NCBI RefSeq assembly: GCF_025148125.1
Contig: NZ_CP102267.1
Coordinates: 1,238,001-1,302,000, forward strand
Length of the DNA: 64,000 nt
Direction: 5' to 3'
Origin: Blautia wexlerae DSM 19850
GTDB taxonomy: Bacteria > Bacillota > Clostridia > Lachnospirales > Lachnospiraceae
Of this stretch, positions 6,075 through 22,986 are shown in pieces. Below the pieces are notes generated by a model. The model did no database searches, was not told where the DNA came from, and was given only the letters and a program-made list of their open reading frames with translations. The translations under genes and the position numbers were made by a program. Numbering within the stretch: position 1 is the stretch's first letter; every line of letters begins with the position of its first letter.

Positions 6075-6094
6075 GCACTTTGATAACAGAATAT

Positions 6095-6275
6095 CGGAAG
6101 TAACGTTATCTCTTTATCTTTAGCTTTTGGAAATCCGGTGAGATACCGGTACGGTTTCATCCCCACTGTAATAAGGACGAACACTGCGAAGCCATTGGAA
6201 ATTATTTCTGAGAAGGGCAGTAAGTAGGTTAGAGTATGTCTGAAAAATACTCTGGAACTTTAAGTCAGGAGACGG
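6095..6275 (+). promoter_or_regulatory. Cobalamin riboswitch controlling the DUF4430/ECF operon
   Basis: Aptamer boxes occur in order: TTTTGGAAATCCGGTGAGAT, then ACCGGTACGGTTTCATCCCC followed by ACTGTAAT, then AAGCCATTGG, GAGAAGGGCAGTAAGTAGG, and finally TTTAAGTCAGGAGAC. This is a nearly canonical B12 element. About 180 nt separate it from the first gene. I do not see a clean terminator there, so control may be translational or use a structure I cannot resolve by eye. Confidence 0.88.
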
Positions 6276-6455
6276 GCTTTAGAGTGTGTGTGAAAATGAA
6301 GAATGGACATATGCAGGCAGAGCAGAGGTTTATTTTTTGCACCCTTTTTTAGGGAAAACAGATATCAACGCAGTCTGAATGATTGTGAAAAGATATATTT
6401 TGCAGAATAACCTGCAAAAGAACAAACTATATTTTAATTTCAAGGAGGAAACGAA

Positions 6456-7193
6456 ATGAACATGAAAGTAAGAAAAAGCGTGATTGCATTCTTAATGGCA
6501 ACAACAATGGTAGGAAGCACAGCAGTACCGGCTATGGCAGATACAGTAACTGCAAAAGTGTCTATAAAGACAACTGGTTTAACAGGAAAAAATAGTGCGT
6601 CACCAGACATTGTGCCAGAAAAAGTTGTTACAGTAACAAATTCCAACGGTTCTGTTACTGCACTAGATGTTCTGAAAGCAGTTTCGGGATCTGATACTGA
6701 AACAAAAGAGACTTTAAATGGTAAAACTTATCATTATCAAGGAGTTTTAAGTTGGTATGATAGTCAGTATGGAAATTATATTCCAGCTGTTAAAATGGAA
6801 AATCATGCTAATAGCGATTTAGGGAAAGTATTTGCAGATGATGGTACAGCAAATAAAACAGCAAACTCTCTTGCTAACGGAAGAGGAAAATATTTCAAAT
6901 TATCAAATCTTAATACAACAGAAACAGAAAGCATGAAGGTTACAAAAAATTCAACCTGGAACAATATAGTACATAAAACAGATTGGCTTTCTGAGAAAGA
7001 CTATAATAATTATTCAGGTTGGATGACTATTATTGATGGTAATACAGATAACTTAGGTGTTGATACTGTACTTTCCGACACTAAAGAACACACTGTATGC
7101 TTAGATTTTTCTATGATGATGGGATTAGATCTTGGATTTTCCAGTTATGTTCAGCAGGGAGATCAGTGGATTCAGGTTCCGGGTTGGAAATAA
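6456..7193 (+). CDS. Exported DUF4430 (transcobalamin C-terminal-like) protein, first gene of the B12 operon
   Basis: A 245-aa protein with AAGGAGG 7 nt before the ATG. It begins with a clear signal peptide (RKSVIAFLMATTMVGSTAVPAMA). The rest resembles a single DUF4430 domain. SVTALDVLKAVSG corresponds to the xTaxDVLk block, and NYSGWMTIIDGN corresponds to the SGWxYxvNg block. A C-terminal strand VCLDFSMMMGLDLG closely parallels VLRVMFALCGGTDITG in the operon's last gene. In vertebrate B12 carriers this domain closes over the corrinoid. Codon use is more AT-rich than in downstream genes. A role in extracellular corrinoid binding is inferred from the riboswitch and neighbours. No anchor is visible, so it may be released or held by partners. 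Confidence 0.72.
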   Translation: MNMKVRKSVIAFLMATTMVGSTAVPAMADTVTAKVSIKTTGLTGKNSASPDIVPEKVVTVTNSNGSVTALDVLKAVSGSDTETKETLNGKTYHYQGVLSWYDSQYGNYIPAVKMENHANSDLGKVFADDGTANKTANSLANGRGKYFKLSNLNTTETESMKVTKNSTWNNIVHKTDWLSEKDYNNYSGWMTIIDGNTDNLGVDTVLSDTKEHTVCLDFSMMMGLDLGFSSYVQQGDQWIQVPGWK

Positions 7194-7216
7194 AGTAAAT
7201 TTTAATAGCAAATAAA

Positions 7217-7280
7217 AAGATGAAGATACTAATGCTTTATAAAGTTTCACTTTATAAAGCATTAGTTCTTCGTCTTTTTC
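7217..7280 (+). terminator. Large intergenic hairpin / terminator after the first gene
   Basis: ACTAATGCTTTATAAAG-tttca-CTTTATAAAGCATTAGT, a 17-bp perfect stem, followed by TCTTCGTCTTTTTC. It probably lowers but does not abolish transcription into the giant gene, since no promoter is obvious between. Confidence 0.75.
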
Positions 7281-7311
7281 ATATTATTTTAATTTTAGGG
7301 TGTAAATAGAT

Positions 7312-10300
7312 ATGAAGAAAAAGAAAAAAAAAAAAAATCTTATATCAGTTAATATTCTCAGCTTTTCTATTATTTAGTAATGCCTATCTTGTAAAAGCTA
7401 ATTCAGATATATTATCACAAGATTCAACAGGGAAATACTGTATTAATACAGAACAAGATTATTATAATTTTATCGAAAATATACAAAATTATAATAATAA
7501 AACGGTTATACTATGTAATGACATTGACATTTCAGATGTTCCAGAAGCAACATCTAGTTTTGGCGGCATATTGAACGGAAAAGGACACACCATTACATAT
7601 GCTTCAAAAGAAGCAAAAGAAAACATTGCTGTATTTCCTTTTCGTATAAATGACAATGGAATTGTAGAAAATATAAATGTACAAATTGATGAATCATATG
7701 CATATAATAGCGAAACAGATGAATTTCAAACTGTCTTTTCGCAATGTGATGGAATTGCAAAAGGAATAACAATTAAAGGAAACGTAACTTGTATTTATGA
7801 CGATGAAGATGAAGATGTTTCAATAGGTGCAATCGAGGGAAATGGAACTTTAATGGATTCTTCCATAGCGATAACTTACGATTTGCAGAGTGAAAAAACA
7901 ATCGAAGAAATAGCTGAGGATATTGTTGAGAATGATTTAGAATTTGAATTTTGTCAATTAGGAACAACTTATGCTGGAATAACTTACCAAAATTGTATAG
8001 GATATGGACAGTATTCGGAAGCAATAAAGTCATTAGCAGATGAACTGGAACCCAAAATAGAAGATAATACATGGGGAAATCTATGTGTTTCATTTACACG
8101 AAAAAGTTTTTCTAGTACGTCAGCAAGTGCAACCAATTGTTATTATGATAAAGAAAATATGCCAGACATTAAAATCAGGTCTGAATATATTGCAAATAGA
8201 GATAATAATAAAGAGTTTCCTAATTATGCTGATTTTGGCAAAACTACGTCTGAAATGAAAAACCAGGGAACTTATGAAGGGTTTGACTTTAATAAAAAAT
8301 GGACTATTTCCCCAGAAGATAATAATGGCTATCCATATTATAATCTACAAACCGAAGAAATAACTCTTAAAGTTCAGGCTTCCACTGAACCTAAAGTATG
8401 GAGTACAAGCGTACCCAGAGATTATAATCGTTTTGTTGATTATGCTAAAAATTATCATTTCCCATATCAAGTAGATATTATAGATGGTGAAAAAAAGAAT
8501 ATTTACGATGACGGTAATAATAATGTTGTAAATGTGATAGGTGTAAAATTTACAGATTTAACTGATGAACAACAATCTATTATTGAAAAATATGGTATAG
8601 AAGTAGTTTTGCCATCTGATGATGTAAAGAAAGATATAAAATCTGCTACAATTGATACGAGTTTTTTAGGCGAACGTCCATTAAGCGTAGAATGGATTAA
8701 TATGCCTATTTTGAAATTTAAAGATGGAAAAGAAGAACAAGCAGAAGAAGATGGGTATAGTTTCAAAGTTGAAGTAGTTGACGGTACTGGTGAAGTTGTA
8801 GACAATGGAGCTAAGGGAAACTCAAGTAATCCAAGTCATTGGCCATCTTACTATGAAAAAGCTAAAAAGGCTTGTAACATTATTATGAACTATTGCCAAA
8901 ATAAAAATGCCTTTGGATCTAAAGAATCCCCATCCTATGAAAATACAGATATTTGGGCCATTTTTACAGCAGCTAGATGCGGCTATATTCCATATGGAGA
9001 TACAAATTATTTTGACAAATGGTTTGCAAATACCAAAGAGTATTTGCAGTTACTTAAAAATCAGGGAACTGATGTTTCTCAATGGAAGACAACAGAACTT
9101 TCAAAATTAATTTTAGCTATTGAAGCTATTGGATATGATCCAAGGGACATTTCGTCTGTAGACCTTCTTTCGGCAGTTGGATCAAGAAAAAGCACAGAAC
9201 TTACTTATACAACTGTATATGCTATTAATGCAATAAAAGCAGGTGGGTATACCGCTGACACTTTTAAAGATACAGAACTTAACCAATGGGCACATGATAC
9301 AGCAAAAGCTTTGTCAAATGCCGAAGACAAAATTTTTGCAAATGCCGACAATACCATAGGATGGCAGCCACTTATTTTCTGGTACAAAAAGCCTGGTTAC
9401 GATGATGTAACAGAAGCTGTAGACAAGGCATTACATAAGCTTCCAGCAATTGCACAACGTTCAACAGGTTCATTCTGTACACCAGGATTTGAAACAGGAT
9501 GTATGTCTTATGGAAACAACGCATGGAATGATGCACAGGCAATGCTTTTTGCAGGAACGTTTGGTGTAAATGTTTTAGATTCTTCCAGTGGATATACTAA
9601 GAATGGAAACAATATTCTTGATGCATTCTTTGATCTGGTAGATGTAGATGATGTTCTTGACGGAAGTATTCATGGATTCACAAATTATGATGTTCCGCAG
9701 ATTGCACGTGGTCTGGATGCATTTATCAGACAATATGAAAAAACATCCAGCTTCTGGGAATTTACAGACGTAACCGTTCCAACCAGATCCGTTAACGACA
9801 TGATCCTTGCCCTTAACGATAACAGTTCGAAAGAAGACATCAAAGCAGCGAGAGAGGCTTACGATAAATTAGATGAAACTCACAAGGCAATCTTTAACAA
9901 GGATACACTCAGAAAGCTTCTTGCAGCAGAGACTGGTTCAGGTAATTCTATTGAAAAAGCTATGGCAGCCATTGATGCGATCCCAGCAGCGGATAAGCTG
10001 ACAATGGATGACAAGGCGGCTGTAGAGAAAGCAAGAACTCTTTATAATTCACTGAATGATGAAGAGAAATCTGTAATTACAAATTACTCTAAGCTGACTG
10101 AAGCAGAGGCTAAGATCAGAGAACTCGAGAAACAGCAGGAGCAGAAAGATAAGGATAAGAAAGCGGCAGAGAAGGTTATCGCTGATATTGATGCGCTTCC
10201 TTCTTCTTCTGAACTGACTCTTGATCCGTATGTTCTGCAGCTTCTTGACCGCGTACAGGCAGAGTACAATGCTCTTACGGATGCGCAGAAGGCTCTGGTT

Positions 10301-12586
10301 ACGAATTACAGTACGTTACAGTATCTGAGAAATCTGATCCCTGATCTGAAGGCTGCGGCTGCAGTTGTTGATAAGATCAAGGCGATCGGTGAGGTTACTT
10401 CCGATAATTATCTGAAGAAACAGGCTCTTGTAGTGGAAGCCAGAACGGCTTATGATGCCCTGACAGCAGATCAGAAGAAGCGTGTGACAAACTATGCAGA
10501 GCTTGAAAAAGCGGAGTTGTTTATCAGCAGACAGAGTACGGATGAGAAGGTTGCTTATGTGATCTCCTTTATCGATGAACTGAATATCACTACTTCATCT
10601 TCAGGTGCTCTTTCTGACGGACCTCTGAGACTGACAGAGAAGAATAACAATGTTCCGACAGAGAAAATCTGGAATGACTGGAAGGCTTATGTGGTAAATG
10701 CAAGAGCATTGTATGATACGCTTGATGACCAGCAGAAAGCCCAGGTTACAAATACAGCTTCTCTGGAGAAAGCAGAAGGTTATATTTACCAGCTGAAAGC
10801 CGATGCGCTCAAGGCAATGCTTAAAGCACTCCCGGATGCGCAGACAGTACGAGGATATGAGGCACCTCAGCCGACTACAGTTCCATCAGCACAGGAGGCA
10901 GCTTCTGTTGAAGAGGAACAGGCGGTACCGGCACAGTCTGAGGAATCTGATTTCTCAGATGGAAGTGCGGACGCATTCAGCAGTGATGAAGTTGAGGAGC
11001 AGGCAGCTGAGACAGTGGATATCCCTCAGGCAGAATCAGCTGAAGATACTGAAGATGTCCAGACAGATGTTGATTTCTCCTCTGATGAAGAAGTTCCGGC
11101 AGCAGGTGATACCTCTAAGCGTGAACTTACAGAAGCAGAGCTGAAACAGATTGCAGAAGCCAAGAATGCTTATGACAGATTAACAGAAACAGAAGAGAAG
11201 AAATTCAGAAGCGAGAACACCGCACTGGTTGAGAATATGGAGAAGCTTCTTGCCATGGCACTGACTTATGAGAAAGGCCAGAGTGCATATCAGCAGTTCT
11301 TCGCAGATGAAGCAGCACAGATTTATGCAACAGTAAAAGATCACCCGGTAGACAGAGATTCCTACGCAGATGTTAAGGCTTTCCTTGACCGTTATGCTAA
11401 GGATTATCAGGGACAGGAAGATGCCATGGCAGGCCTGAAAGTCAAAGTCGGCAGTCAGGAGATGACTTTTGCAGAGGTTATCGCAGCACTGACGGCACAG
11501 GCTGACAAGGCAGGTAAGGACATTTCAGATGCACAGCAGGCAGATGAGTGGATCAGCAATCTTCCGACTGCTGTTACCAAAGAGAACATTGCAAATGTAG
11601 AAGCAGAGCTTGCAGCACTTCAGAAGCTGATCGACGGCATGAGTGTGGAAGGCAAGTCCTATATGTGGAATGCGAAGCAGTTAGGGCTGATCAAGACGAT
11701 CGTGGCAGATTACCACATTGAACTTGCGGGCAAACAGGGTGCATTTAAGGCAGATATGCCTGCAGATCTTCAGACAAAGGCAATCAACTATAAGACTGTC
11801 CAGATCAGCTGGAGCAGCGTGGATAACGCAGACGGATACATGGTATACCGCAGAACTGCAGACAGCGGATGGAAGAAGATCGCATCCCGGGTAACAGACA
11901 TTTCCTATAAGGATCAGAAAGCAGTTACAGGAACAACCTATTATTATACTGTTAAGGCGTACTCTTACGCATGGGGCGAGATGACTGTAAGCAGCTATGA
12001 CAAAGATGGTGTTGCAGGAAAAGCCAGACTTGGCAAAGTAAAGATTGCTACGGCAAATTCTGAAAGCTACAGTACGATCCGCGTAACATGGAATAAGGTT
12101 TCCGGTGCAAATGGATACAGAGTATACCGTTCCACTTCAAAGGATGGCAAGTATACAGCGATTGGTTCCACTGCAAAGAACAGCGCAGTTACATTCCTAG
12201 ATAAGAAAGCAGTTACCGGTAAGACTTATTATTACAAAGTACGTGCTTACCGCAATGTAAGCGGAAAGAAAGTATACGGAAGCTATTCAGCAACAGAGAA
12301 AGCAAAGGCAGTACTTTCTGCTCCGACCCTGTCCGCAGGCTCAACTTCAAAGACAGCAGTGCTTGAATGGAGTAAGGTAAAGGGTGCCGATGGCTATCAG
12401 GTATATGCCAGCGATTCCCAAAATGGTACCTATACCCGCATAAAGATCACCAAAGGTACAGGTGCGACAGACGAGAGCCTCCTCACCGGAAAGACCCGTT
12501 ACTATAAAGTACGTGCTTACAGAAAAGTAAACGGAAAAGCAGTTTATGGCTCTTTCTCAAAGATTAAAAAAGTAACTGTTAAATAA
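7312..12586 (+). CDS. Giant secreted protein: beta-helix-like region, intrinsic-factor-like alpha/alpha domain, helical repeats, fibronectin-like domains (frame broken at A14)
   Basis: The long frame is open from just after an A14 run at 7324-7337 to 12586. Its own signal peptide (ILYQLIFSAFLLFSNA) has no start codon in frame. The only suitable ATG, at 7312 (MKKKKK), is in the other frame, and one A fewer would join them; a TTG at 7571 would omit the signal peptide. Regions: GLUG/beta-helix-like, about 7560-8350; an all-alpha domain at about 8847-9770 (TDIWAIFTAARCGY, TELSKLILAIEAIGYDP, YTTVYAINAIKAGGY) resembling the toroid of intrinsic factor; four or more helical repeats (YNSLNDEEKSVITNYSKL) with an acidic insert at 10890-11110; and three fibronectin III-like domains (YYYKVRAYR) at 11770-12583. 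There is no LPXTG motif. It presumably binds corrinoid or displays partner proteins. Confidence 0.75.
7324..7337. repeat. A14 homopolymer that separates the start codon from the signal-peptide frame
   Basis: Fourteen consecutive A follow ATGAAGAAAAAG. A13 would put ATG 7312 in frame with the 1750-residue protein; A14 leads to a TAG at 7375. Confidence 0.9.
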
Positions 12587-12594
12587 TAAAATCA

Positions 12595-12625
12595 GTATGC
12601 AGTGTGTTATCAACACACTGCATAC
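12595..12625 (+). terminator. Intergenic hairpin without a T tail
   Basis: GTATGCAGTGTGTT-atc-AACACACTGCATAC is a strong perfect stem, but CCCCAAAAG follows instead of a T run. It is more likely an RNA processing or stability element than a terminator. Confidence 0.5.
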
Positions 12626-12644
12626 CCCAAAAGAAGGTAAGAGA

Positions 12645-13115
12645 ATGAAAAAAGCATTTATAATTATAATTTTATGTATGATTTTGCAAATTTTTACAGT
12701 TACTGTATATGCAAATGATAGCAATGTAAATATTGTAAGCGCTGATAATTATGAATCACGGGAATTTAATCAATGGAAGCGCGCTAAGTATGATTTTTCA
12801 TTTAATGTATCTACCGAAAAGAAAACTATAAAGGCATTATGTAGTGCTGTGTTAACTGCAACTGGAACAGCAATTGGATCTTGCGGAGGTGAAGGAGCAG
12901 CTATAGCAGGAAGTGCAATTGGAGCGGGAATTTCTTCTTATGCGAGTGATTGTATAGAGGAACATTACAGTAAATTCAAAAAAAAGGGATATGGTACTTC
13001 AATTACAGCTATGTATGGTTCAAAATTGCGCGTGATTATATCAATATATTCAGATTCAGCAAGAACAAAATTAGTTTCTGAATATAAAATGTCTACAGAT
13101 TCCTATCCTGTATAA
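12645..13115 (+). CDS. Small exported protein with a glycine/alanine-rich hydrophobic segment, unknown function
   Basis: A 156-aa protein starting at the ATG at 12645, which has GAAGG about 9 nt upstream; the longer frame from 12597 would start inside the hairpin. It has a classical signal peptide (KKAFIIIILCMILQIFTVTVYA). Around residues 68-105 is a Gly/Ala-rich stretch (ATGTAIGSCGGEGAAIAGSA) like a glycine zipper, then a basic C-terminal part (HYSKFKKKGYG, SIYSDSARTKLV). I do not recognise the family. The composition resembles bacteriocin-like or pore-type peptides, but also some surface-layer accessory proteins. It is AT-rich compared with the operon genes on either side. Confidence 0.7.
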   Translation: MKKAFIIIILCMILQIFTVTVYANDSNVNIVSADNYESREFNQWKRAKYDFSFNVSTEKKTIKALCSAVLTATGTAIGSCGGEGAAIAGSAIGAGISSYASDCIEEHYSKFKKKGYGTSITAMYGSKLRVIISIYSDSARTKLVSEYKMSTDSYPV

Positions 13116-13124
13116 TTTATATAT

Positions 13125-13346
13125 ATGAATAAAATAAAAATATTTTTGCTGACTATTTCATTAATGTTTTTGGCGAGCCTGGCAGCTATATTTATATCAA
13201 GAGAATTTATATTCCACAATAAAATTTCAGATTTGAGCTGCCTGTTAAACATATGGAAAGATACTTATGGATGGAATTTTCTGATAAATGTAATAATCGC
13301 TCTGATAATTGCTGCAAAATTTGGAAAGAATGATACAAAAAAATAA
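13125..13346 (+). CDS. Small two-helix membrane protein, unknown function
   Basis: A 73-aa protein starting 9 nt after the preceding stop, so it is co-transcribed with it. It has two predicted membrane helices (IFLLTISLMFLASLAAIFI and FLINVIIALIIAAKF) and a short lysine-rich tail. It is AT-rich like its partner. A pairing of exported small protein and membrane protein could reflect toxin and immunity, or a secretion accessory pair. Nothing in the sequence decides between these. Confidence 0.65.
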   Translation: MNKIKIFLLTISLMFLASLAAIFISREFIFHNKISDLSCLLNIWKDTYGWNFLINVIIALIIAAKFGKNDTKK

Positions 13347-13370
13347 GGCAGATGTCCTTTCTACCTGCTA

Positions 13371-13435
13371 TATGACAGGGGGAGAGTCATCTGTCATTTT
13401 GTAATTTCAGGAATTGCGGGTGCTATTTTACCCGG
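13371..13435 (+). other. Two small hairpins before the next operon gene
   Basis: ATGACAG...CTGTCAT (13371-13398) and CGGGT...ACCCG (13418-13435) are each followed by modest T stretches (TTTTG, TTTTTTAG). They may be weak terminators or spacers that isolate the two AT-rich small genes. Confidence 0.35.
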
Positions 13436-13471
13436 ATGTAATTTTTTAGATTAAAAACGCGGAGGAAACAA

Positions 13472-16009
13472 ATGAATAAACAATGGATGGCACTGCTTCT
13501 CAGTACAGGAATTGCTGTGACCGCATGTCCTGTACCCGCAGCCCAGATGCCACCGGCTGAGCAGATACACGGGGAGGCAGAAGAAACTTCTGTCCCTGTA
13601 CAGCATGATGATTCTGACGACAGAGAAACTGCGAATGAATTCCAGTCTGACACCGAACCATCTCAGTCAGAGACAGACGATGGCGCGGCCGGAAATGAAG
13701 AAGAAAATAATGAAGCCGGTGAAGAAAAGCTGGATATACCAGCCATGATTTCCTGTATTCAGGAAGCAGCGGCGCTCGAAGAAATTGATCTGTCCTCAGA
13801 AACGGTCTCGAAGTTCTTTCTTGCCAGTGACACCTATGACAGTCTGACAGAAGAGGAGCAGGCAGAAATTGATGCCGGAGTCAAAGAGGCTCTTGAAACT
13901 GTCCGAAACCGTATTGCGGCACTGATTTCTTCTGACAGTGGAGTGACCGCCACGGGAAATCCCTGGTATGTGCAGACCCATGTGCAGGAGAACCCGGATC
14001 AGGAACAGACTATACAGGAGCTCTCCGAAGCATATCCGGGGACTCTTCCACAGCTTCTTTATGATATAAATATTTCCTATACGGATATCCGTACAGGAGA
14101 AAGCTATCAGCCAATGACGATGATCTCTCTGACATTTCCTGTCCCGGATGGATATGAGAGTCTGACGAAACCGAGGGTTCTTAGAAGTACCGGGGATTCG
14201 TTTATGGAACTGACCCCTCAGACGACAGAAGATAACCGATTCTATCTGGACAGTGCCAGAACTTTAAACCATCTGATCATTGCTGACTTTCCCGCAGGAC
14301 TTCAGGGAATCTCTCTTAACAGTAAATCCGTTAAGATCAACCGGGGGCAGAAATACACCCTGAAGGTGGTTCCGATACCGGAATCGGTTACGGAAGAGTA
14401 TACAGTGACATGGAAAAGCAGTGACACTTCTGTTGCGAAAGTAAGCAAAAAGGGAGTTGTCACAGCAGTAAAGAATGGCAAAGCTACGATTACCGCTTCT
14501 GTAACACAACACCCGGAAATGACGGCCTCCTGTAAGGTAACGGTCATGCAGGGAGCAAATGCCCTGAAGAAATCGGTCAGTCAGGTTATGGCAGAGACCA
14601 GCGCCTATATGCGTGCAACAGATACCAATCCTTCTGTTGGCAGCGAATGGTATGTGCTTGGGCTGGCAAGAGGCGGTTTAAGCCTGAAGGAGAAATATTT
14701 CTCTACCTATTATAATCACACGGCAAATTATATCGAGGAAAAGAAGGGAATCCTTACCAATACCTCCAAATATACAGAATATTCCAAGAGAATCCTGGTC
14801 CTGACCTCGGAGGGGAAGGATGCCCGCAATGTGGGGGGTTACAATCTGTTTCAATATATCTCTGATCTCAGCCTTGTGAAGGAACAGGGATTAAACGGCC
14901 CGATCTGGGCACTCCTTGCCCTTAACTGCCACCCGGAATATTCTTTCCCGGAGAACCCGTCTGCGAAGGAGCAGAATTCGGAATCTGCGCTGGTGAATTT
15001 CCTGCTGCAGAGTGAACTCCCGGGTGGCGGATGGACGCTGATGGGGAGTAATGCAGATTCTGATATCACCGGCATGACACTGCAGGCGCTGGCACCGTAT
15101 TATCATAAATCAGGTTATGAGAATGTGACTGCTGCCATTGACAGAGGGCTGAATAAATTGTCGGAAATGCAGAACGACAGCGGTGGATATTCCACGATGG
15201 GTGTGGAGACAGAGGAGTCCTGTGCACAGATCATCACGGCTTTATGCAGCCTTGGGATTGACCCGGAGACGGATTCGCGTTTCATCAAGGGCGGCCACTG
15301 GACAATAGAGAATCTTCTTTCCTATCATATCGATGGAAGTGGATTTATGCATGTAAAGGCGGGTGCCGGAAATAACGGCGGGGCGGCAGCAGGCACTCTG
15401 GACGGGATGGCTACGGAGCAGGGATATTACGCACTGGTTGCCTACCAGCGCCTGAAGGATGGCAAGACGAGCCTTTATGATATGTCAGATGTGAGTATCA
15501 AAAAAGGTGGCAAGGGAGATGGTTCCGGTACCGGTCTGAAAGAACCCACGCCGATTCCTACCCCGACGCCGGTTCCTGCCACAACACCGTCAGGCGGCAA
15601 TACGAAAACGCCGGGTGGATCCGGGAAATCTCTGGGTGGTAAGTCTTCCGGCAGCAAAAGCTCCACGGGTTCCGAAAGCTCAGGAAAGGATAGTGGCTCC
15701 GGTTCAAAGGATTCTAAAAACAGTAAATCAAAGAACAGTAAGTCATCAAAGGATAAGAATTCCGGCGGCTGGGATTTCGAAGCAGAGCCTTATACAGAGT
15801 CGGAAGAGACTTCACAGATGGATACCGGTGAGGATGGATATCAGGAAACTGCCGGGGAGAGTGGAACCGGAAGTCTGACCTCAAAGAAGAAAGAATATGG
15901 TATGATCTTTGGTTTTGCGGCAGGCGGTGCTCTGGCGGGAGGACTGGCAGGCAGCGGCATTAAGGCCGGAGTGAGGGCTCTTATTAAGAAGCGGAGGAAG
16001 AAGAAATGA
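13472..16009 (+). CDS. Membrane-anchored surface protein with Big_2 and intrinsic-factor-like alpha/alpha domain
   Basis: An 845-aa protein with GGAGG 6 nt before the ATG. The N-terminal export signal ends in VTAC, which could also be a lipobox (C19). An acidic low-complexity stretch follows, then a bacterial Ig-like Big_2 domain (residues about 280-360; WKSSDTSVAKVSKKGVVTAV). Next is an all-alpha toroid-like domain (about 365-670; WYVLGLARGGLS, GPIWALLALNCHPEY, DITGMTLQALAPYY, ESCAQIITALCSLGIDP) of the prenyltransferase/cobalamin-binding type. A Pro-Thr and Ser-Gly linker precedes a C-terminal membrane helix with a KKRRKKK tail. The arrangement suggests a tethered corrinoid-binding subunit whose beta partner is the next gene, with which it overlaps by ATGA. 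Confidence 0.78.
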   Translation: MNKQWMALLLSTGIAVTACPVPAAQMPPAEQIHGEAEETSVPVQHDDSDDRETANEFQSDTEPSQSETDDGAAGNEEENNEAGEEKLDIPAMISCIQEAAALEEIDLSSETVSKFFLASDTYDSLTEEEQAEIDAGVKEALETVRNRIAALISSDSGVTATGNPWYVQTHVQENPDQEQTIQELSEAYPGTLPQLLYDINISYTDIRTGESYQPMTMISLTFPVPDGYESLTKPRVLRSTGDSFMELTPQTTEDNRFYLDSARTLNHLIIADFPAGLQGISLNSKSVKINRGQKYTLKVVPIPESVTEEYTVTWKSSDTSVAKVSKKGVVTAVKNGKATITASVTQHPEMTASCKVTVMQGANALKKSVSQVMAETSAYMRATDTNPSVGSEWYVLGLARGGLSLKEKYFSTYYNHTANYIEEKKGILTNTSKYTEYSKRILVLTSEGKDARNVGGYNLFQYISDLSLVKEQGLNGPIWALLALNCHPEYSFPENPSAKEQNSESALVNFLLQSELPGGGWTLMGSNADSDITGMTLQALAPYYHKSGYENVTAAIDRGLNKLSEMQNDSGGYSTMGVETEESCAQIITALCSLGIDPETDSRFIKGGHWTIENLLSYHIDGSGFMHVKAGAGNNGGAAAGTLDGMATEQGYYALVAYQRLKDGKTSLYDMSDVSIKKGGKGDGSGTGLKEPTPIPTPTPVPATTPSGGNTKTPGGSGKSLGGKSSGSKSSTGSESSGKDSGSGSKDSKNSKSKNSKSSKDKNSGGWDFEAEPYTESEETSQMDTGEDGYQETAGESGTGSLTSKKKEYGMIFGFAAGGALAGGLAGSGIKAGVRALIKKRRKKK

Positions 16010-17256
16010 GGATAAAGAAAAAGGGACTTGCCCTGTGGCTTGCACTGTTTCTGGGGGTAAGTTCGCTCTCAGGTTGTGGCGGCGGGGATGACGGCATGAC
16101 ACAGCTTTCCGAAAAAGGAGCTGAGATCTTAAACAGCACGGAGGAAGATTCTGATACAGATGTGGAACCTTTGAAGCAGAAAACAAAGCTTCCTGAGGAC
16201 GGAATCATCACCCAGGCACAGATGGAAACGATCGCCGGAAAGGACGAAAAGTATTATTTTACCGGAAAAACGGACAGCGGGATCAGTTATAAATGGACTT
16301 ACAATGGAAGCCAGATTCAGAATCCGGTGGAGCAAAAACTTCTGGTACAGTGCAGTGAAGATGGAACAGAAGAGGTAAAGAAGCTTGCCAATGATGCGCC
16401 TTATGCGTTGAAAGTCACACTGGAGAAGATGAATCTGGCAGCGCCTGCGAAGCTGACCCTGAATCTGAAAGAAAAATGGGACGCGGATAAGGTTCTTTAC
16501 TGTCTGGAAGAAGATGGAAAGCTTTATCAGCTTGATACTGCAAAGATTACTACCAGAGAAACCGGAAAGAAAAAAACAGAGCGCACAACACTTACCTTTA
16601 ACGTGACTAAGACAGGAGGAGATTTCTATCTGATCGGCGGTTCTACCACAGGTGAATCTACGGATGAATCCGATGACAAATCCAAGGGCACTGCTGATAA
16701 TAAGGATACACAAAACGGTGAAAATTCCACTGGAAGTTCTGGCGGTCAGTCCAGCACAGATGGAAATACCAGTTCCGGACAGACAGACTCTTCCGGCGAT
16801 GGAACAGGCAATACAGACACTTCCGGTGGCGATGACAGCTCAGATACAGCCATGACCTGTACTTTCTCTATCGAGTGTTCTACGATCCTGAATAACTGGG
16901 ATGATCTGAAAGAGTCCAAGGCAGAATTTGTGCCTGCGGACGGCTGGATCCTGTATCCTTCGGAGGTGGAGTTCTATGAGGGGGAGACGGTATTTGATGT
17001 GCTGAAGCGTGTATGTAATCAGGCCGGTATTCAGATGGAGTCGGAGTGGACACCTATGTATAACAGTTATTATGTATCCGGTATCAATAACCTGTATGAG
17101 TTTGACTGTGGCAAGGATTCCGGATGGATGTACTGTGTCAACGGCTGGTATCCGAATTATGGCTGCTCGAAATATACGCTGGAGGACGGCGATACGGTAG
17201 AATGGCGTTATACCTGCAATCTTGGCAGGGATGTGGGGGATCAGTATTATGACTGA
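16006..17256 (+). CDS. DUF4430 lipoprotein, transcobalamin C-terminal-like
   Basis: A 416-aa predicted lipoprotein: signal sequence with lipobox LSGC (C24). It has a middle beta-rich region, a Ser/Gly/Asp-rich linker (about residues 215-280) and a C-terminal DUF4430 domain (about 285-416). The domain contains VEFYEGETVFDVLKRVC, YYVSGINNLYEFDCG, DSGWMYCVNGWYPNYG and EDGDTVEWRYTC. These are the hallmark blocks of the family that includes the beta domain of intrinsic factor and transcobalamin. It overlaps both neighbours by a few bases, indicating tight translational coupling with the toroid-bearing protein upstream and EcfT downstream. I infer extracellular B12 binding and delivery to the ECF transporter. 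Confidence 0.82.
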   Translation: MRIKKKGLALWLALFLGVSSLSGCGGGDDGMTQLSEKGAEILNSTEEDSDTDVEPLKQKTKLPEDGIITQAQMETIAGKDEKYYFTGKTDSGISYKWTYNGSQIQNPVEQKLLVQCSEDGTEEVKKLANDAPYALKVTLEKMNLAAPAKLTLNLKEKWDADKVLYCLEEDGKLYQLDTAKITTRETGKKKTERTTLTFNVTKTGGDFYLIGGSTTGESTDESDDKSKGTADNKDTQNGENSTGSSGGQSSTDGNTSSGQTDSSGDGTGNTDTSGGDDSSDTAMTCTFSIECSTILNNWDDLKESKAEFVPADGWILYPSEVEFYEGETVFDVLKRVCNQAGIQMESEWTPMYNSYYVSGINNLYEFDCGKDSGWMYCVNGWYPNYGCSKYTLEDGDTVEWRYTCNLGRDVGDQYYD

Positions 17257-18241
17257 TGCTTTTTCCAGGTGCCATCCTGTTTTAAATTTCTTTTATTTTG
17301 CCGTGGTGCTGGGGTTTACCATGTTTATCCAGCACCCGGTTTACCTGGCAGTCTCTTTTGTGGCTGCCACAGCTTACTCCATGTGGCTTAACGGAGTAAA
17401 GAAGGTTCTGAAAATCAATTTTCTTCTGACGCTACCGAGTCTCCTTATCGTGGCACTCTTAAACCCGATGTTTAACCATTACGGAGTCACACCGCTTCTT
17501 TATATAGAAAGCAGCGGAAACTGGGTTACGCTGGAGGCAATGGTATATGGAATCGTTCTGGGATGTGTACTTTTTATTATGATTTTGTGGTTCTCCTGCT
17601 ATAACCAGATCATGACAAGTGATAAATTTATCTATCTTTTTGGCAGGATTATCCCTGCGATGTCTCTGATGCTGTCTATGGCGCTTCGGTTTGTGCCTCA
17701 CTTTATGGCCCAGCTGAAGGTGATCCGCAATGGACAGAAATGCGTGGGGATGGATGTGAGCAATGGCAAATGGTTTAAGAAGATCCGTTATGCGTTAAAT
17801 ATGGTGTCCATTCTTGTCACATGGGCACTGGAAAATGCGATTGAGACGGCTGATTCCATGAAAAGCCGTGGCTATGGGTTAAGAGGACGTACGGCTTTTT
17901 CTATTTACCGTTTTAACAGAAGGGATAAACTACTGGGAACTATGCTTGTCGGGCTTTGTGTGATTTTCGGATATGGATGTTACCGGGGAGCTGCTTTTGC
18001 ACAGTACAATCCCAGAATCCTGCTTGCCGGTTTTACTGTTTTCGGAAGGGTTCCGAAGCAGTCGTGCAGTCCGCTGCTGGCTGCTGTCACATTTGTCAGC
18101 TTTGGTGTGTTCTGTTTTCTGCCGCTGATTCTGGATCTGTGTGAGGAATCTGCCATGAAGAAAAGCAGAAGCCACGTACAGGGAGAGATGGCAGTGACCT
18201 ACAGAAAGATTTATGAAGATATGGAAGGAGAAGCGAGATGA
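17249..18241 (+). CDS. ecfT: ECF transporter transmembrane component EcfT
   Basis: A 330-aa membrane protein with several hydrophobic helices. The ATG at 17249 overlaps the preceding stop; an earlier in-frame start at 17222 would lengthen the overlap and has no better ribosome site. The cytoplasmic coupling helices carry the EcfT signature: ALRFVPHFMAQLKVIRNGQ, and the SRGYGLRGRT motif that contacts the ATPases. It is followed at once (ATGA overlap) by the fused ATPase gene. It forms the scaffold linking the ATPase pair to the substrate-binding S component. Unlike group II ECF systems with a shared housekeeping module, this operon encodes its own, so it is a dedicated transporter. Confidence 0.9.
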   Translation: MTDAFSRCHPVLNFFYFAVVLGFTMFIQHPVYLAVSFVAATAYSMWLNGVKKVLKINFLLTLPSLLIVALLNPMFNHYGVTPLLYIESSGNWVTLEAMVYGIVLGCVLFIMILWFSCYNQIMTSDKFIYLFGRIIPAMSLMLSMALRFVPHFMAQLKVIRNGQKCVGMDVSNGKWFKKIRYALNMVSILVTWALENAIETADSMKSRGYGLRGRTAFSIYRFNRRDKLLGTMLVGLCVIFGYGCYRGAAFAQYNPRILLAGFTVFGRVPKQSCSPLLAAVTFVSFGVFCFLPLILDLCEESAMKKSRSHVQGEMAVTYRKIYEDMEGEAR

Positions 18242-19995
18242 AGATAATAGAAGTGAGAGATTTTTCCTTCCGTTATGCGAATGGCAGCAGGGAGTCACTG
18301 TCTCATGTGTCACTGGATGTGGAGGAGGGTACCTTTAATGTGCTGTGCGGTAAGAGTGGCTGTGGCAAGAGTACGCTGCTTCGCCAGCTGAAGTCGGATC
18401 TGGCTCCTTTTGGCAGCAGTTCCGGGAAAATCTGTTATTATGGGCGGGATTTGAAGGAAGTCGGCCACCGGCAGCAGAGCCAGGAAATTGGCTATGTACT
18501 GCAAAATCCCGAAAATCAGATCGTGACAGATAAGGTGTGGCATGAGCTTGCATTTGGTCTGGAAAGTCTGGGGTATGATACGCCTACGATTCGTCTGAGA
18601 GTGGCAGAGATGGCAAGCTATTTCGGGATTCATCAGTGGTTTTATAAGAATGTCTCGGAGCTGTCCGGAGGGCAGAAGCAGCTTTTAAACCTGGCGGCGA
18701 TCATGGCTATGCACCCGAAACTTCTGATTCTGGATGAGCCGACTTCTCAGCTTGATCCGATCGCGGCTTCTGATTTTCTGGAAACGGTGAGAAAGATTAA
18801 CCGGGATATCGGCACTACCATAATTCTGACGGAGCACCGGCTGCAGGATGTCATTCCGTGGGCGGACAGGGTATATGTGATGGATAAGGGCAGTCTGCTC
18901 ACGCAGGGGGCGCCACGGGAGATCGGTGAGTTCCTGAAGAGGGAACATCATGGAATGTTTCTGTCTATGCCGGTTCCCATGCAGATTTATGCAGAGGTAG
19001 AAAATAATCTGCCATGTCCGCTGACTGTAAAAGAGGGAAGGAACTGGATCACACAGGTGATGGCAGCAACTTCTGATACAGTTTCTGTTTGTGAAGAAAG
19101 TTATTTTTGTAAAAATAAACAAAAACTGCAAAAAAAGCTGAATACAGTCAGAGATAAACTGCTGTCTGGTTCCAAAAGCTCTATGCCACCGGCTATTGAG
19201 GTAAAGGATGTGTGGTTTCGTTATGAAAAAGACGGAAAGGATGTTGTGCAGGATCTGAACCTGGAAGTAAAGCAGGGAGAATTTTATGCGCTTGTCGGTG
19301 GAAACGGAACGGGGAAAAGTACGACTTTATCGCTGATCAGTCGTGTCCGTGCTCCCTACAGAGGCAAGATTCTCCTGAATGGGACTGATATCCGCAGGTA
19401 TACGGATACCCAGCTTTACAGAGGGTATCTGGGTGTGCTGCCACAGAATCCCCAGAGCATGTTTATCAAGAAGACAGTCCGGGAGGATCTGTATTCTATC
19501 ATCGGTGGGGCAAAGGAGAAGAAATCTTCCGAATACACTGCCAATATGAGGAAGGCAGAGGCAATCGAGGGAATCGTAAGTCTGACCAGACTGGAAGGAC
19601 TGCTTGACCGTCATCCGTATGATTTAAGCGGTGGAGAACAGCAGCGTCTTGCACTGGCTAAGGTTCTGCTGTTGCAGCCGAGGCTTCTTCTGATGGATGA
19701 ACCAACGAAGGGGCTGGATGCAGAATATAAACAGGAACTGGGAGACATTTTAAAGAAGCTCAAAGCTCACGGGATCACTATCTTTATGATCTCGCATGAT
19801 GTGGAGTTTGTCGCAGAATATGCAGACAGGGTCGGCCTGTTCTTTCAGGGAAATGTGGTGACGTGTAAGAGTGCAAGGGATTTCTTTGCGGGAAACAGCT
19901 TTTATACGACTGCTGCCAATCGCATGGCAAGGCATTATTTTCCTGATGCTGTTACCGGAAAGGAGGTGGCTGCGTGCTTGAAGGCAAGGCTTTAG
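18238..19995 (+). CDS. ecfA: Fused ECF ATPase (EcfA-EcfA', two ABC domains)
   Basis: A 585-aa protein with two complete ABC ATPase domains in one chain. Domain 1 has Walker A GKSGCGKST, signature LSGGQKQLLNL and Walker B LLILDEPTSQLDP, with H in LTEHRL. Domain 2 (from about residue 315) has GGNGTGKST, LSGGEQQRLALAKVLL and LLLMDEPTKGLDA, with H in MISHDVEF. The linker around residues 270-310 is poorly conserved. It powers the ECF transporter with EcfT and the next gene. The start overlaps ecfT by ATGA. Both active sites appear intact. Confidence 0.92.
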   Translation: MKIIEVRDFSFRYANGSRESLSHVSLDVEEGTFNVLCGKSGCGKSTLLRQLKSDLAPFGSSSGKICYYGRDLKEVGHRQQSQEIGYVLQNPENQIVTDKVWHELAFGLESLGYDTPTIRLRVAEMASYFGIHQWFYKNVSELSGGQKQLLNLAAIMAMHPKLLILDEPTSQLDPIAASDFLETVRKINRDIGTTIILTEHRLQDVIPWADRVYVMDKGSLLTQGAPREIGEFLKREHHGMFLSMPVPMQIYAEVENNLPCPLTVKEGRNWITQVMAATSDTVSVCEESYFCKNKQKLQKKLNTVRDKLLSGSKSSMPPAIEVKDVWFRYEKDGKDVVQDLNLEVKQGEFYALVGGNGTGKSTTLSLISRVRAPYRGKILLNGTDIRRYTDTQLYRGYLGVLPQNPQSMFIKKTVREDLYSIIGGAKEKKSSEYTANMRKAEAIEGIVSLTRLEGLLDRHPYDLSGGEQQRLALAKVLLLQPRLLLMDEPTKGLDAEYKQELGDILKKLKAHGITIFMISHDVEFVAEYADRVGLFFQGNVVTCKSARDFFAGNSFYTTAANRMARHYFPDAVTGKEVAACLKARL

Positions 19996-20864
19996 ACCAG
20001 TTTATGGACCGTTTCTTCGGGGATTCCTGTGCACAGAGCCTGCCCGGGGAAGAGGAATCCGGACAGGAATTAGAGGAATATGAACTGAAAGAGGATGGAA
20101 TCATTATCCAGCCGATCCATAAAGGAAAGATTGAGAAGCGTACCTGGATCGGTCTGATTATGTTTCTGGCTTTTGTTCCGCTGGTGCTTTTTATCCTGGT
20201 TCATAAGTTTCATGGTAAGCATGATGTAGTGATCAGTCTTTTAATACTTGCCTATGCCACGATCCCGTTCTTTATGGTATTTGAGGGCCGGCATCCACAG
20301 GCAAGAGAGATTATGGTCATTGCCGTAATGGCGGCTCTTGGGGTCGCAGGCAGGAGTGCTTTCTTTATGATCGGAAGCTTTAAGCCGATTGCGGCCATCG
20401 TGATCATTACCGGGGTTTCCTTAGGTGGTGAGGCGGGGTTTCTGTGTGCCTGTCTGATCATGATGATCTCAAATATGTTTTTCGGGCAGGGACCGTGGAC
20501 ACCCTGGCAGATGTTTTCCTATGGAATGATCGGATATCTGGCAGGAATCCTTTTTCAGAAAGGGATTCTCAAAGCCAGGAAGGTGGATCTGTGTATTTAC
20601 GGATTCTTAAGTGTGTTTCTGATCTTCGGCGGGATCATGAATCCGGCATCTATTCTGATGGCATACGGATACATCACAAAGAAGAGCCTGATCGCGTTTT
20701 ATATCTCAGGTGCACCGGTAGATCTGGTGCAGGCAACTTCTACGGTAATCTTCCTGTGGATCCTAAGCAGGCCTCTGCTGGAGAAACTGGAGAGAGTAAA
20801 AAGAAAATACGGGCTGCTGCAGCGGCCCGAAAATAAGGAGGAAAATGAATATGACAAAGAATAA
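19974..20864 (+). CDS. ECF transporter S component, predicted corrinoid-specific (CbrT-like)
   Basis: A 296-aa protein with a GTG start at 19974 preceded by AGGAGG at 19961, overlapping the ATPase gene. The first 50 residues are an acidic cytoplasmic extension, unusual for S components. About six membrane helices follow. Segments such as REIMVIAVMAALGVAGRSAF, SFKPIAAIVIITGVSLGGEA and MFFGQGPWTPWQMFSYGMIG match what I recall of predicted cobalamin S components (CbrT type). The B12 riboswitch and DUF4430 neighbours support corrinoid as the substrate, but this rests on context. Confidence 0.8.
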   Translation: MLEGKALDQFMDRFFGDSCAQSLPGEEESGQELEEYELKEDGIIIQPIHKGKIEKRTWIGLIMFLAFVPLVLFILVHKFHGKHDVVISLLILAYATIPFFMVFEGRHPQAREIMVIAVMAALGVAGRSAFFMIGSFKPIAAIVIITGVSLGGEAGFLCACLIMMISNMFFGQGPWTPWQMFSYGMIGYLAGILFQKGILKARKVDLCIYGFLSVFLIFGGIMNPASILMAYGYITKKSLIAFYISGAPVDLVQATSTVIFLWILSRPLLEKLERVKRKYGLLQRPENKEENEYDKE

Positions 20865-22986
20865 GCTATGGCAGGCCATTAAGGGGCTGACTCTTGCAGC
20901 CGGAATGGCAGTGGGGATTTTTGCGCTGGGACAGACCGATGTTCTGGCAGATACCCTGACGCTGACTGTGGAGAAGAACACGATCGGCCAGGGTATGATC
21001 CTGGATCCTGTACAGGTGGAATTTGCGAAAGGAGAAACCTGTGCAGATGTTCTGCTCCGCGGGTTAAGTGAGAACGGGATTACGCCGCTTTATGACACAA
21101 ATACAAGTTATGGTTTCTACTTAAGGGGAATTGCCAACTGTGACAGTGGAAGCCTGAATCCACCGGCATGTATCCAGAAGGTTCTCTCCGAGACTTCCAC
21201 CTGGACCGGTGATGCCTATAAGCTTACTGATAACAAATATGCACCGGATCTGACAGAATTTTCCTACTGCTCCGCATCCGGATGGACGTATACTCTGGAT
21301 AATGTATTTATGGGTGTCGGAATGGGTGCGAGTCATCCGTCAGACGGAAGTGTCCTGCGTGTTATGTTTGCCCTTTGCGGTGGTACGGACATTACAGGAT
21401 GTGACCCGTATAATAATAACAGGCAGATTTTTGAGGCGGCAGATAAGAGCGAGCTTATCCGCATGATGGGAAAGGCAAATGCAGAGCGTTCCAGATGGTC
21501 CCAGGTCAGCGGATTCTCCGGTGCATATGCCGAAGCGGACAGTGCGCTGACTACGCTGGATGCGTCTGCAAACAGAGTTTATGAAGCGGTTCAGCTGCTT
21601 AAAAGTATTGAGTCAAAGCTTCCGGTAGCACCGAAGCTGATCAGCTTAAATGCTTCTGATCTGACTCTTACAAAGGGAGACAGCTATACACTGACTTATA
21701 CGATTGTTCCGTCTGATGCGGTGGGAACTGTAAGCTGGACTTCTTCCAACAATTCTGTTGCAAGTGTAAACGGTGGTGTGGTAACAGCAGTGGGAGAAGG
21801 TTCTGCGGTGATTACTGCGAGAGTTTCCGGAAGTGTCTATGCGACCTGCAATATTTCCGTTTCTTCCAGACCGGTCAGTGTGACAGGGGTGAGTATTTCT
21901 CCGTCCAGCCTGAATCTCTCAACGAAAAGCGGTTCCAGGACACTGGATTACACGATCACGCCAAACGGCGCAAAACCGTCCTCTTTGTACTGGGAATCTT
22001 CCAACTCTTCTGTAGTAACCGTAGATGGCTCCGGCAAGGTAACTCCTGTGGGTGCCGGTTCTGCAGATATTACACTGACTACGGACAATGGAATGAAAGG
22101 CACCTGCCACGTGACTGTTACAGCACCGGCACAGAGCATTGCTTTGAGTGACAAAACGCTGACTCTGGCAATTGATCAGGGAACCTATACCCTGACCTGG
22201 ACATTCAGTCCGAAGGGAAGCGGCGGGGAACTGGTATGGACCTCTGATAATGCAGGCGTTGCCAAAGTAGACCAGAAGGGTGTTATCACACCTGTTTCTG
22301 TAGGAGAAACCGATATCCGTGTAAAAACAGATCAGAATGTAACCGCAGTGTGCCATGTAGTTGTAAAGGGTACTGCGAAAGACCTCTTTGCAGCAGGAAT
22401 GCCAGAGATCACAACCTGCAAGGCGGCAGGAAATACAGTTCTTCTTACTTGGAATAAATATGAAAATGCAGATTCTTATATTATTTTAAGACGTAAGATG
22501 GGTGAAAGCAAATTCGCAAAGATTGCTACGGTCAAAGACCTCTCCTATACAGATACAGCGTTTTCTCCGTCAACTCCTTATTATTACAGTGTACAGGCTG
22601 TTTCCACCAAATGGGGCGGTGCTATTAAAAGCAGTTATGACAAAAACTTCTCTGTAACAACCAATGGAATTGCACCGACACCAACTCCGGCACAGACAGT
22701 AAAACCGAAAACCCCGGCTGTCACAGTAACTGCCGGTAAGAAACAGGCTACACTGAAATGGAAAAAGGTAAGCGGTGCCAAAGGGTATGTAGTATACCGT
22801 GCCACATCCAAATCCGGTAAATATAAGGCAGTATCAACGATTAAAAAGGGAAGCACTGTTTCTTATATAAATAAGAAGCTTACGTCTAAGAAAACATACT
22901 ATTACAAGGTGCGGGCATATCGTACCGAAAACGGTAAAAGAATATACAGCAGCTATTCTAAAGCAAAGAGCGCTAAGATCAAATAA
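20851..22986 (+). CDS. Secreted DUF4430 protein with Big_2 repeats and fibronectin-like domains
   Basis: About 711 aa. The ATG at 20851 has a better distance to AGGAGG than the ATG at 20845. After a signal peptide (TLAAGMAVGIFALGQTDVLA) comes an N-terminal DUF4430-like domain (about residues 30-190; FAKGETCADVLLRGL, YGFYLRGIANCDSG, SASGWTYTLDNVFMG, VLRVMFALCGGTDITG). Three Big_2 Ig-like repeats follow (VSWTSSNNSVASVNGGVVTA and relatives), then two fibronectin III-like domains like those in the giant protein (YYYKVRAYR, YSSYSKAKSAKIK). There is no sortase motif; the repeats probably span or bind the wall. Likely a further corrinoid-binding surface subunit closing the operon. Confidence 0.78.
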   Translation: MTKNKLWQAIKGLTLAAGMAVGIFALGQTDVLADTLTLTVEKNTIGQGMILDPVQVEFAKGETCADVLLRGLSENGITPLYDTNTSYGFYLRGIANCDSGSLNPPACIQKVLSETSTWTGDAYKLTDNKYAPDLTEFSYCSASGWTYTLDNVFMGVGMGASHPSDGSVLRVMFALCGGTDITGCDPYNNNRQIFEAADKSELIRMMGKANAERSRWSQVSGFSGAYAEADSALTTLDASANRVYEAVQLLKSIESKLPVAPKLISLNASDLTLTKGDSYTLTYTIVPSDAVGTVSWTSSNNSVASVNGGVVTAVGEGSAVITARVSGSVYATCNISVSSRPVSVTGVSISPSSLNLSTKSGSRTLDYTITPNGAKPSSLYWESSNSSVVTVDGSGKVTPVGAGSADITLTTDNGMKGTCHVTVTAPAQSIALSDKTLTLAIDQGTYTLTWTFSPKGSGGELVWTSDNAGVAKVDQKGVITPVSVGETDIRVKTDQNVTAVCHVVVKGTAKDLFAAGMPEITTCKAAGNTVLLTWNKYENADSYIILRRKMGESKFAKIATVKDLSYTDTAFSPSTPYYYSVQAVSTKWGGAIKSSYDKNFSVTTNGIAPTPTPAQTVKPKTPAVTVTAGKKQATLKWKKVSGAKGYVVYRATSKSGKYKAVSTIKKGSTVSYINKKLTSKKTYYYKVRAYRTENGKRIYSSYSKAKSAKIK

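Follow-up and report, generated by a model that had tools for sequence, protein, structure and literature searches.

A riboswitch-headed gene array of Blautia wexlerae with toroid and DUF4430-type exported proteins and a CbrT-like ECF transporter, predicted to capture and import corrinoids

The window analysed here is a 64,000-nucleotide stretch of Blautia wexlerae DSM 19850 (contig NZ_CP102267.1, positions 1,238,001 to 1,302,000; positions below are counted within it unless a genome coordinate is given, and genes are named by their first position). It carries a gene array in which a cobalamin riboswitch is followed by genes for two proteins with an alpha/alpha toroid, for three of DUF4430 type and for a complete energy-coupling factor (ECF) transporter. 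The array is most probably a corrinoid capture-and-import system that is repressed through the riboswitch and in which exported toroid and DUF4430 binders feed a CbrT-type transporter (probability about 0.82). This reading, with domains of transcobalamin type, is favoured because the S component matches CbrT, because S and toroid genes co-occur across genomes and are fused in one of them, because a natural two-domain relative finds transcobalamin and its kin first in a structure search, and because cobalamin riboswitches lie upstream in relatives. Corrinoid capture and import by the locus thus has a high probability, and the split, intrinsic-factor-like clamp of the original prediction is plausible.

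We infer a scheme in which corrinoid would repress the array via the upstream riboswitch. Partnered toroid and DUF4430 proteins at the surface would bind corrinoid outside the cell, with the ligand held between toroid and beta domain as in intrinsic factor and transcobalamin, and would pass it to the dedicated CbrT-type S component, whereupon EcfT and EcfAA' would power import. The neighbouring CbiZ, under a riboswitch of its own, may cut imported foreign corrinoids, from which the cell would rebuild its preferred cobamide.

Riboswitch, transporter and conserved neighbourhood

The canonical cobalamin riboswitch that had been predicted ahead of the genes was recovered by the Rfam covariance model RF00174 at 6081-6295 on the plus strand, with 50.8 bits against a gathering cut-off of 31.5 (E 9.9e-10). 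A second and higher-scoring cobalamin riboswitch (84.9 bits) lies divergent from the array at 1527-1729 on the minus strand, and the genome, a single contig of 4.69 Mb, holds six RF00174 riboswitches above the cut-off. The array itself is present as predicted and its genes overlap from 13472 through to 20845; a single transcript for it remains putative because a terminator-like hairpin of 18 pairs lies between the first two genes (7228-7266, plus strand, from the consensus scan alone, which detected 13 such sites in the stretch against 13.1 expected from shuffles, that is, no excess). A 356-base gap precedes 13472 and contains a 73-residue open reading frame (ORF; 13125-13346, plus strand) with two hydrophobic stretches by eye, which is possibly no gene. 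A scan of this gap (13115-13472) for another riboswitch found none, one chance-level match falling below the gathering cut-off. Riboswitch control of the whole array is putative.

EcfT, paired EcfA ATPases and an S component are all encoded on the plus strand, and Pfam or NCBIfam supports each, as the original prediction had it. EcfT (17222-18241, with an ATG at 17249) is of CbrV type and matches the CbiQ-type family PF02361 with 25.0 bits, exactly at the cut-off; the fused EcfA-EcfA' ATPases (18238-19995) are of CbrU type and match TIGR04520 and TIGR04521; the S component (19974-20864) matches PF07155, which Pfam names ECF-ribofla_trS, and is weakly folT-like in NCBIfam, below the cut-off. 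At E<=1, the S component finds a single sequence in the PDB, 6fnp_A (E 7e-14), which is CbrT, so that among solved S components it relates to this one and not to the others. ECF-CbrT (6FNP) is an importer shown to take cobalamin and cobinamide (PMC5997447).

Conservation was studied in two genome surveys and in a set of public loci. The latter (77, the best of at least 585) were chosen by their toroid and are biased accordingly, a bias from which the genome surveys are free; the nearest named loci come mostly from Lachnospiraceae and otherwise from other Bacillota. Among 80 genomes of the same family, the S component was found in 18 (E<=1e-20), the toroid in 17 (E<=1e-10) and both in 16, while among 119 genomes of the phylum, each at least 90% complete, the S component was found in 33 and the toroid in 24 (both E<=1e-15), all 24 also holding S (Fisher p 9e-14 and 4e-18, respectively, both overstated since the genomes are related). 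The co-occurrence of toroid and ECF S genes, put forward earlier as a check, is therefore tight in both surveys. Twelve of the 16 pairs in the family lie at most 6 kb apart on one strand of one contig (rows read by eye), the exceptions being a pair 14 kb apart on opposite strands (G030) and three pairs on different contigs (G039, G044 and G078). In the phylum, 22 of the 24 pairs are at most 10 kb apart on one strand and the other two (G105 and G142) are on different contigs. Unpaired genes also occur: the family survey found S without toroid in G036 and G051 and toroid without S in G056, and nine of the 33 phylum genomes with S lack the toroid, some of them, with E near 1e-20, perhaps holding other S families.

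In one distant genome (G187), a single chain of 739 residues combines an S component like CbrT with a toroid and SLH repeats (L094, G187:C1, 1116-3332, minus strand). A separate observation concerns L097 (G012:C6, 4304-6949), where the S match lies inside an 882-residue ORF, a length that suggests a fused EcfA-EcfA'-S chain.

The 77 public loci contain a DUF4430 domain in 75 cases, EcfT in 67 and S in 66, and toroid and DUF4430 share one ORF in 45. Twenty-one of them, picked for spread, were scanned with Rfam, and RF00174 was found upstream of the toroid and on its strand in 15; it lies 2.6 and 6 kb ahead of the first detected domain in L003 and L005, respectively. No upstream RF00174 was found in the other six scanned loci, which are L007, L014 (downstream only), L021, L023, L031 and L036. 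In the 20.9-kb locus of a Peptococcaceae metagenome-assembled genome (L074), four RF00174 matches above the cut-off flank the toroid/DUF4430/ECF array, with a pair on either side.

Likeness of the toroid and DUF4430 domains to transcobalamin

The product of 13472 (13472-16009, plus strand) is an 845-residue membrane-anchored protein with a signal peptide, Big_2, the toroid at residues 360-680 and a C-terminal hydrophobic segment with a basic tail (ends by eye). The toroid has 3113 homologues at E<=0.001 among 7997 candidates scored, and a model from an alignment of 11 sequences is an alpha/alpha toroid (pLDDT 91.6, pTM 0.91). The other toroid belongs to a large surface protein of 1671 residues (7571-12586, plus strand), between an unclassified N-terminal part and C-terminal Fn3/GH85_C-like repeats. 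It is related to the 13472 toroid (BLASTP 1.8e-8, profile 1.3e-9), to which it aligns over residues 462-642, with limits of about 420-760 by eye, and the toroid profile at its threshold has two matches genome-wide, both within the array. Of the two exported toroid proteins that had been proposed, both toroids are therefore supported, but the start given for the first, at 7312, is in a different frame from the toroid ORF, whose first listed start is 7571. Between them, where the signal peptide would start, lies an A14 homopolymer (7324-7337, plus strand), the only A/T run of at least 10 in the window, which could reflect an error of assembly, a tract of variable length or a start that is dead. 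The protein is intact, with a signal peptide at its beginning, in a relative of 98% identity (P0241), the head of a 2725-member cluster.

Sequence profiles of DUF4430 and the toroid gave no link to transcobalamin in the PDB (profile A2 at E<=10, A3 at E<=1); toroid profile A3 reached terpene cyclases and their kin only, and A1 additionally reached alpha-2-macroglobulin-type proteins, weakly. PF01122, the Pfam model of eukaryotic cobalamin-binding proteins, was not among the Pfam matches of nine window proteins at E<=0.01. In Foldseek, the 13472 toroid alone placed transcobalamin at rank 5 (E 2.5e-3) and intrinsic factor at rank 8, among toroid enzymes, with no match at E<=0.001, so transcobalamin was not singled out. 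Another structure comparison put squalene-hopene cyclase first, and transcobalamin was not among the 50 matches listed.

As the toroid alone is not specific for transcobalamin, the two-domain model of a natural fusion was used instead. Toroid and beta domain are on separate genes in the window; a single chain with the toroid first and the beta domain after it is found in the relatives L050, L019 and L020. For the toroid-DUF4430 chain of L050, from Tissierella simiarum, the top 15 Foldseek matches were all transcobalamin, intrinsic factor or haptocorrin (E 1.5e-10 to 2.8e-8), the next match following at 7e-5. The model matches the transcobalamin beta domain in 5no0 with a TMt of 0.75 and a root-mean-square deviation of 2.4, and it shows a beta-grasp with a hairpin after the helix (helix 383-394, strands 398-403 and 408-414). 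By VIA-align, the same chain found terpene cyclases first and transcobalamin 47th. Over both domains, the two-domain model, which is ligand-free, has a root-mean-square deviation of about 23 A. The comparison with intrinsic factor called for by the original prediction bears out the toroid fold and, in L050, the two-domain match, but the model shows no closed clamp. Human TC-alpha and TC-beta, when expressed separately, assemble only with cyanocobalamin (PMC5599065).

An alpha/alpha toroid and a beta-grasp domain are thus shared with animal intrinsic factor, transcobalamin and haptocorrin, whereas identity to them is low (12-15%), the bacterial parts are membrane- or wall-bound and the closed two-domain arrangement is not predicted.

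Candidate partners of the toroid and the probable corrinoid load

The three exported DUF4430-type proteins of the original prediction are not equally well supported. Gene 16006 (16006-17256, plus strand) encodes a 416-residue lipoprotein with DUF4430 of the transcobalamin beta-domain type; it matches PF14478 (4.2e-19, 69.2 bits against a cut-off of 23.8) and is the one match of this model genome-wide at threshold. The 713-residue product of 20845 (20845-22986, plus strand) has an N-terminal DUF4430-like domain (E 8.8e-8 in profile round one and 5.2e-23 in round two), Big_2 repeats and Fn3-type repeats. The 245-residue product of 6456 (6456-7193, plus strand) is assigned a divergent DUF4430-type domain by iterated profile: it has no Pfam match at E<=0.01, was unmatched in the first profile round and matched in rounds two to four with E 1.5e-5, 4.8e-11 and 7.3e-8. 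Pfam misses the domain in both 6456 and 20845, and both assignments come from iterated profiles. In the DUF4430 tree, 6456 sits on a long branch with L012_solo_503.

The split clamp had been proposed to consist of 13472 and 16006, and several of its particulars hold. The ATGA overlap of the two genes is seen in the sequence, 13472 has the C-terminal hydrophobic segment and basic tail of a membrane-anchored protein, and 16006 carries the lipobox-like motif LSGC. The transcobalamin-type domains and the import system stand as well. The pairing itself is putative, given the absence of a closed clamp and the distribution and grouping of the DUF4430 domains. In 63 of the 77 public loci, EcfT is directly preceded by a stand-alone DUF4430 gene, as it is by 16006 here, and 41 of these loci also have toroid and DUF4430 joined in a single ORF. 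In a tree of 59 rows (27 of 78 sources; domains below 95 residues dropped, as were the long-branch rows L009_solo_1751, L019_fusN_5333, L058_solo_6933 and L072_solo_16435), 16006 falls within a 27-row set of EcfT-side genes (support 92/99), which stands beside the DUF4430 domains that are attached to the C-terminal side of a toroid (joint set 86/85). The 20845 domain belongs to a set of 13 rows, eight of which are domains attached to the N-terminal side of a toroid (96/93). A quick tree of 110 rows, from which domains below 90 residues and 23 of 29 Paenibacillus-type loci were excluded, concurs, with Shimodaira-Hasegawa-like approximate likelihood ratio (SH-aLRT) support of 96 for 49 rows with 16006 and of 82 for 30 rows with 20845.

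The notion of 16006 as simply the missing half of 13472 is weakened by these trees and by the 41 loci that have both forms. It is a widespread membrane-tethered part, to judge from these loci and its predicted anchor, present even where the toroid already has a DUF4430 domain. A uniform lipoprotein beside EcfT was considered and rejected, since a lipobox-like motif occurs in 23 of 64 EcfT-side ORFs (62 of 624 control ORFs, with a pattern of our own) and several of the others have a plain N-terminal anchor by eye. The 20845 protein looks like a detached form of the toroid-fused DUF4430 domain and, because it groups with these domains, is no weaker a candidate than 16006 for the partner of 13472.

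It may therefore be that 13472 pairs with 20845 and that 16006 is a separate, membrane-tethered delivery component beside EcfT, a revision that concerns the pairing only and comes near to an even chance without reaching it. The grouping of 20845 with toroid-fused domains and of 16006 with the EcfT-side set speaks for it, as do the EcfT-side genes that coexist with complete toroid-DUF4430 chains, and L002 has the same arrangement as the window. Against it stand the ATGA overlap of 16006 with 13472 and the position of the 16006 set next to the C-terminally fused domains, which is the transcobalamin order (support 90 in the quick tree); moreover, the placements come from 122 and 131 alignment columns, and a support of 92 is below the usual 95.

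The nature of the corrinoid carried is the second matter on which the original prediction needs qualification. It envisaged B12 scavenging, but a large cluster for B12 synthesis is present in the genome, and a CbiZ gene lies next door to the array. The anaerobic B12-synthesis genes cbiD, F, G, H, a J-E-T fusion, cbiA, B, P, C and cobD are consecutive in the genome, where the best family scores of cbiG, cobD and cbiC are below their cut-offs; cbiL and the late lower-ligand genes were outside the search. CbiK is present with RF00174 upstream and is followed by a BtuF/FecCD-type gene group. Another BtuF/FecCD-type group, seen by eye in L083, lies behind a riboswitch. From this gene content, the host is probably a B12 producer.

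The CbiZ adenosylcobinamide amidohydrolase gene crosses the left edge of the window, its 5' part occupying 1-486 on the minus strand (whole gene G000:C1:1237344-1238486), and matches PF01955 (4e-48, 164.4 bits against a cut-off of 27). Together with a BspA-type leucine-rich repeat ORF (763-1323, minus strand; PF13306, 6.5e-48), it is divergent from the array and lies behind the riboswitch at 1527-1729.

On account of the large synthesis cluster and the adjoining CbiZ, salvage and remodelling of foreign corrinoids fit better than scavenging by an auxotroph. As a variant of the capture-and-import reading, the natural load would be mainly foreign corrinoid (pseudocobalamin, cobinamide and other cobamides) destined for CbiZ remodelling, which is somewhat less likely than not. 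In addition to CbiK, the cbi cluster and the CbiZ gene with its own riboswitch, it draws on the finding that CbiZ starts downstream of the S domain, at a distance of 4 to 1070 bases, in five of the 77 public loci (L023, L005, L014, L007 and L016). Furthermore, CbrT takes cobinamide too (PMC5997447), and in Dehalobacter restrictus CbiZ genes are grouped with corrinoid transport genes in operons controlled by cobalamin riboswitches, the transporters there being Fep/Btu-type ABC systems and the words 'ECF' and 'CbrT' being absent from the text (PMC4285132). However, CbiZ was not found in the other 72 loci, within limited flanks (at least 3 kb of downstream sequence in 58 of the 66 loci that have S).

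Two further alternatives survive less well. The exported proteins could instead serve in adhesion or in glycan binding at the surface and share no more than their regulation with a cobalamin importer. Big_2 and Fn3-type repeats, common in surface adhesins, are present in them, and the toroid fold also occurs in glycan-active enzymes and terpene cyclases; the tight co-occurrence of toroid and CbrT-like S, the S-toroid fusion and the top Foldseek rank of transcobalamin for the two-domain chain nevertheless make this very unlikely. Transport of some other vitamin, with the riboswitch acting on a different target, as the Pfam name of the S component and its weak folT-like score might suggest, is scarcely credible with CbrT as the only PDB sequence match and RF00174 upstream in 15 of 21 relatives.

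Relation to known systems and neighbouring features

In the usual description of ECF transporters, the S component alone binds the substrate. If the present array works as proposed, it would qualify the rule that they need no extracellular binding protein, and it would be a Firmicute counterpart to the surface B12 binders of Bacteroides. A further-reaching version is offered tentatively, at slightly less than even odds: a toroid/DUF4430 clamp split over several genes would load the CbrT-type S component directly, the G187 fusion would represent this docking in one chain, the whole would serve as a surface capture and remodelling hub, and such systems would be the bacterial stock of animal intrinsic factor.

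The folds of BtuG, BtuH and BtuB differ from those of the array proteins. The likeness claimed in the original prediction is one of role only: the gut Bacteroides proteins are surface corrinoid binders ahead of an importer in an outer-membrane TonB system (PMC6143338, PMC8941943).

The array is of a kind already predicted in 2007 and is not a new kind. Burroughs, Balaji, Iyer and Aravind described bacterial fusions of toroid and SLBB in both orders, with CbiO and CbiQ partners and paralogous exported SLBB proteins in one operon, for which B12 scavenging was predicted, together with transfer to animals from low-GC Gram-positives (PMC1796856). Shared with those systems are SLBB (the DUF4430 type), the toroid, a CbiO-like ATPase, a CbiQ-like membrane protein and a second exported SLBB paralogue. 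In the present array, by contrast, the toroid of 13472 and the DUF4430 domains are on separate genes, and we could identify an S component like CbrT, riboswitches and CbiZ next to the array. A further difference is the large B12-synthesis cluster of this genome, as the bacteria of that paper usually lack key B12-synthesis enzymes (PMC1796856). The 2007 prediction of Gram-positive forerunners of intrinsic factor that capture B12 is apparently still without experimental test: among the papers listed in searches of the open-licence literature, which were not aimed specifically at the S-toroid fusion or the 20845-type split, none showed a measurement of binding or uptake for a bacterial B12 binder of DUF4430 or toroid type. 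The idea becomes directly testable with the present locus and its relatives, which offer an identified CbrT, riboswitches, both split and fused forms, and the S-toroid fusion.

ECF-CbrT (CbrUVT) of Lactobacillus delbrueckii shares with the array the S family (E 7e-14) and an importer of EcfT/EcfAA' type; CbrT is there one of eight S components predicted to use a shared ECF module (PMC5997447), whereas the array has its own genes for EcfT, EcfAA' and S side by side, accompanied by exported capture proteins. In a review, cbrUVT is counted among the transporters for B12 uptake (PMC8123684). The label 'Additional lipoprotein component of putative cobalamin ECF transporter' in a proteome table (PMC9963975) would fit 16006 and expresses the same idea; it is an annotation without experiment, and its application to a DUF4430 protein is our reading of it.

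Between the two toroid genes lies a gene for a small exported protein of 172 residues with a glycine-rich middle (12597-13115, plus strand), which has no Pfam or NCBIfam match at E<=0.01. An IS30-type transposase gene and a TnpB-like gene were recognized by eye at 2150-3508 and 3804-5132, between the two riboswitches of the window. Elsewhere in the genome, a cobalamin riboswitch at G000:C1:1181695-1181889 (L081, L092) comes after genes that are eut-like by eye, and is followed by a small cysteine-rich ORF and then by an exported-looking papain-family protein (PF00112).

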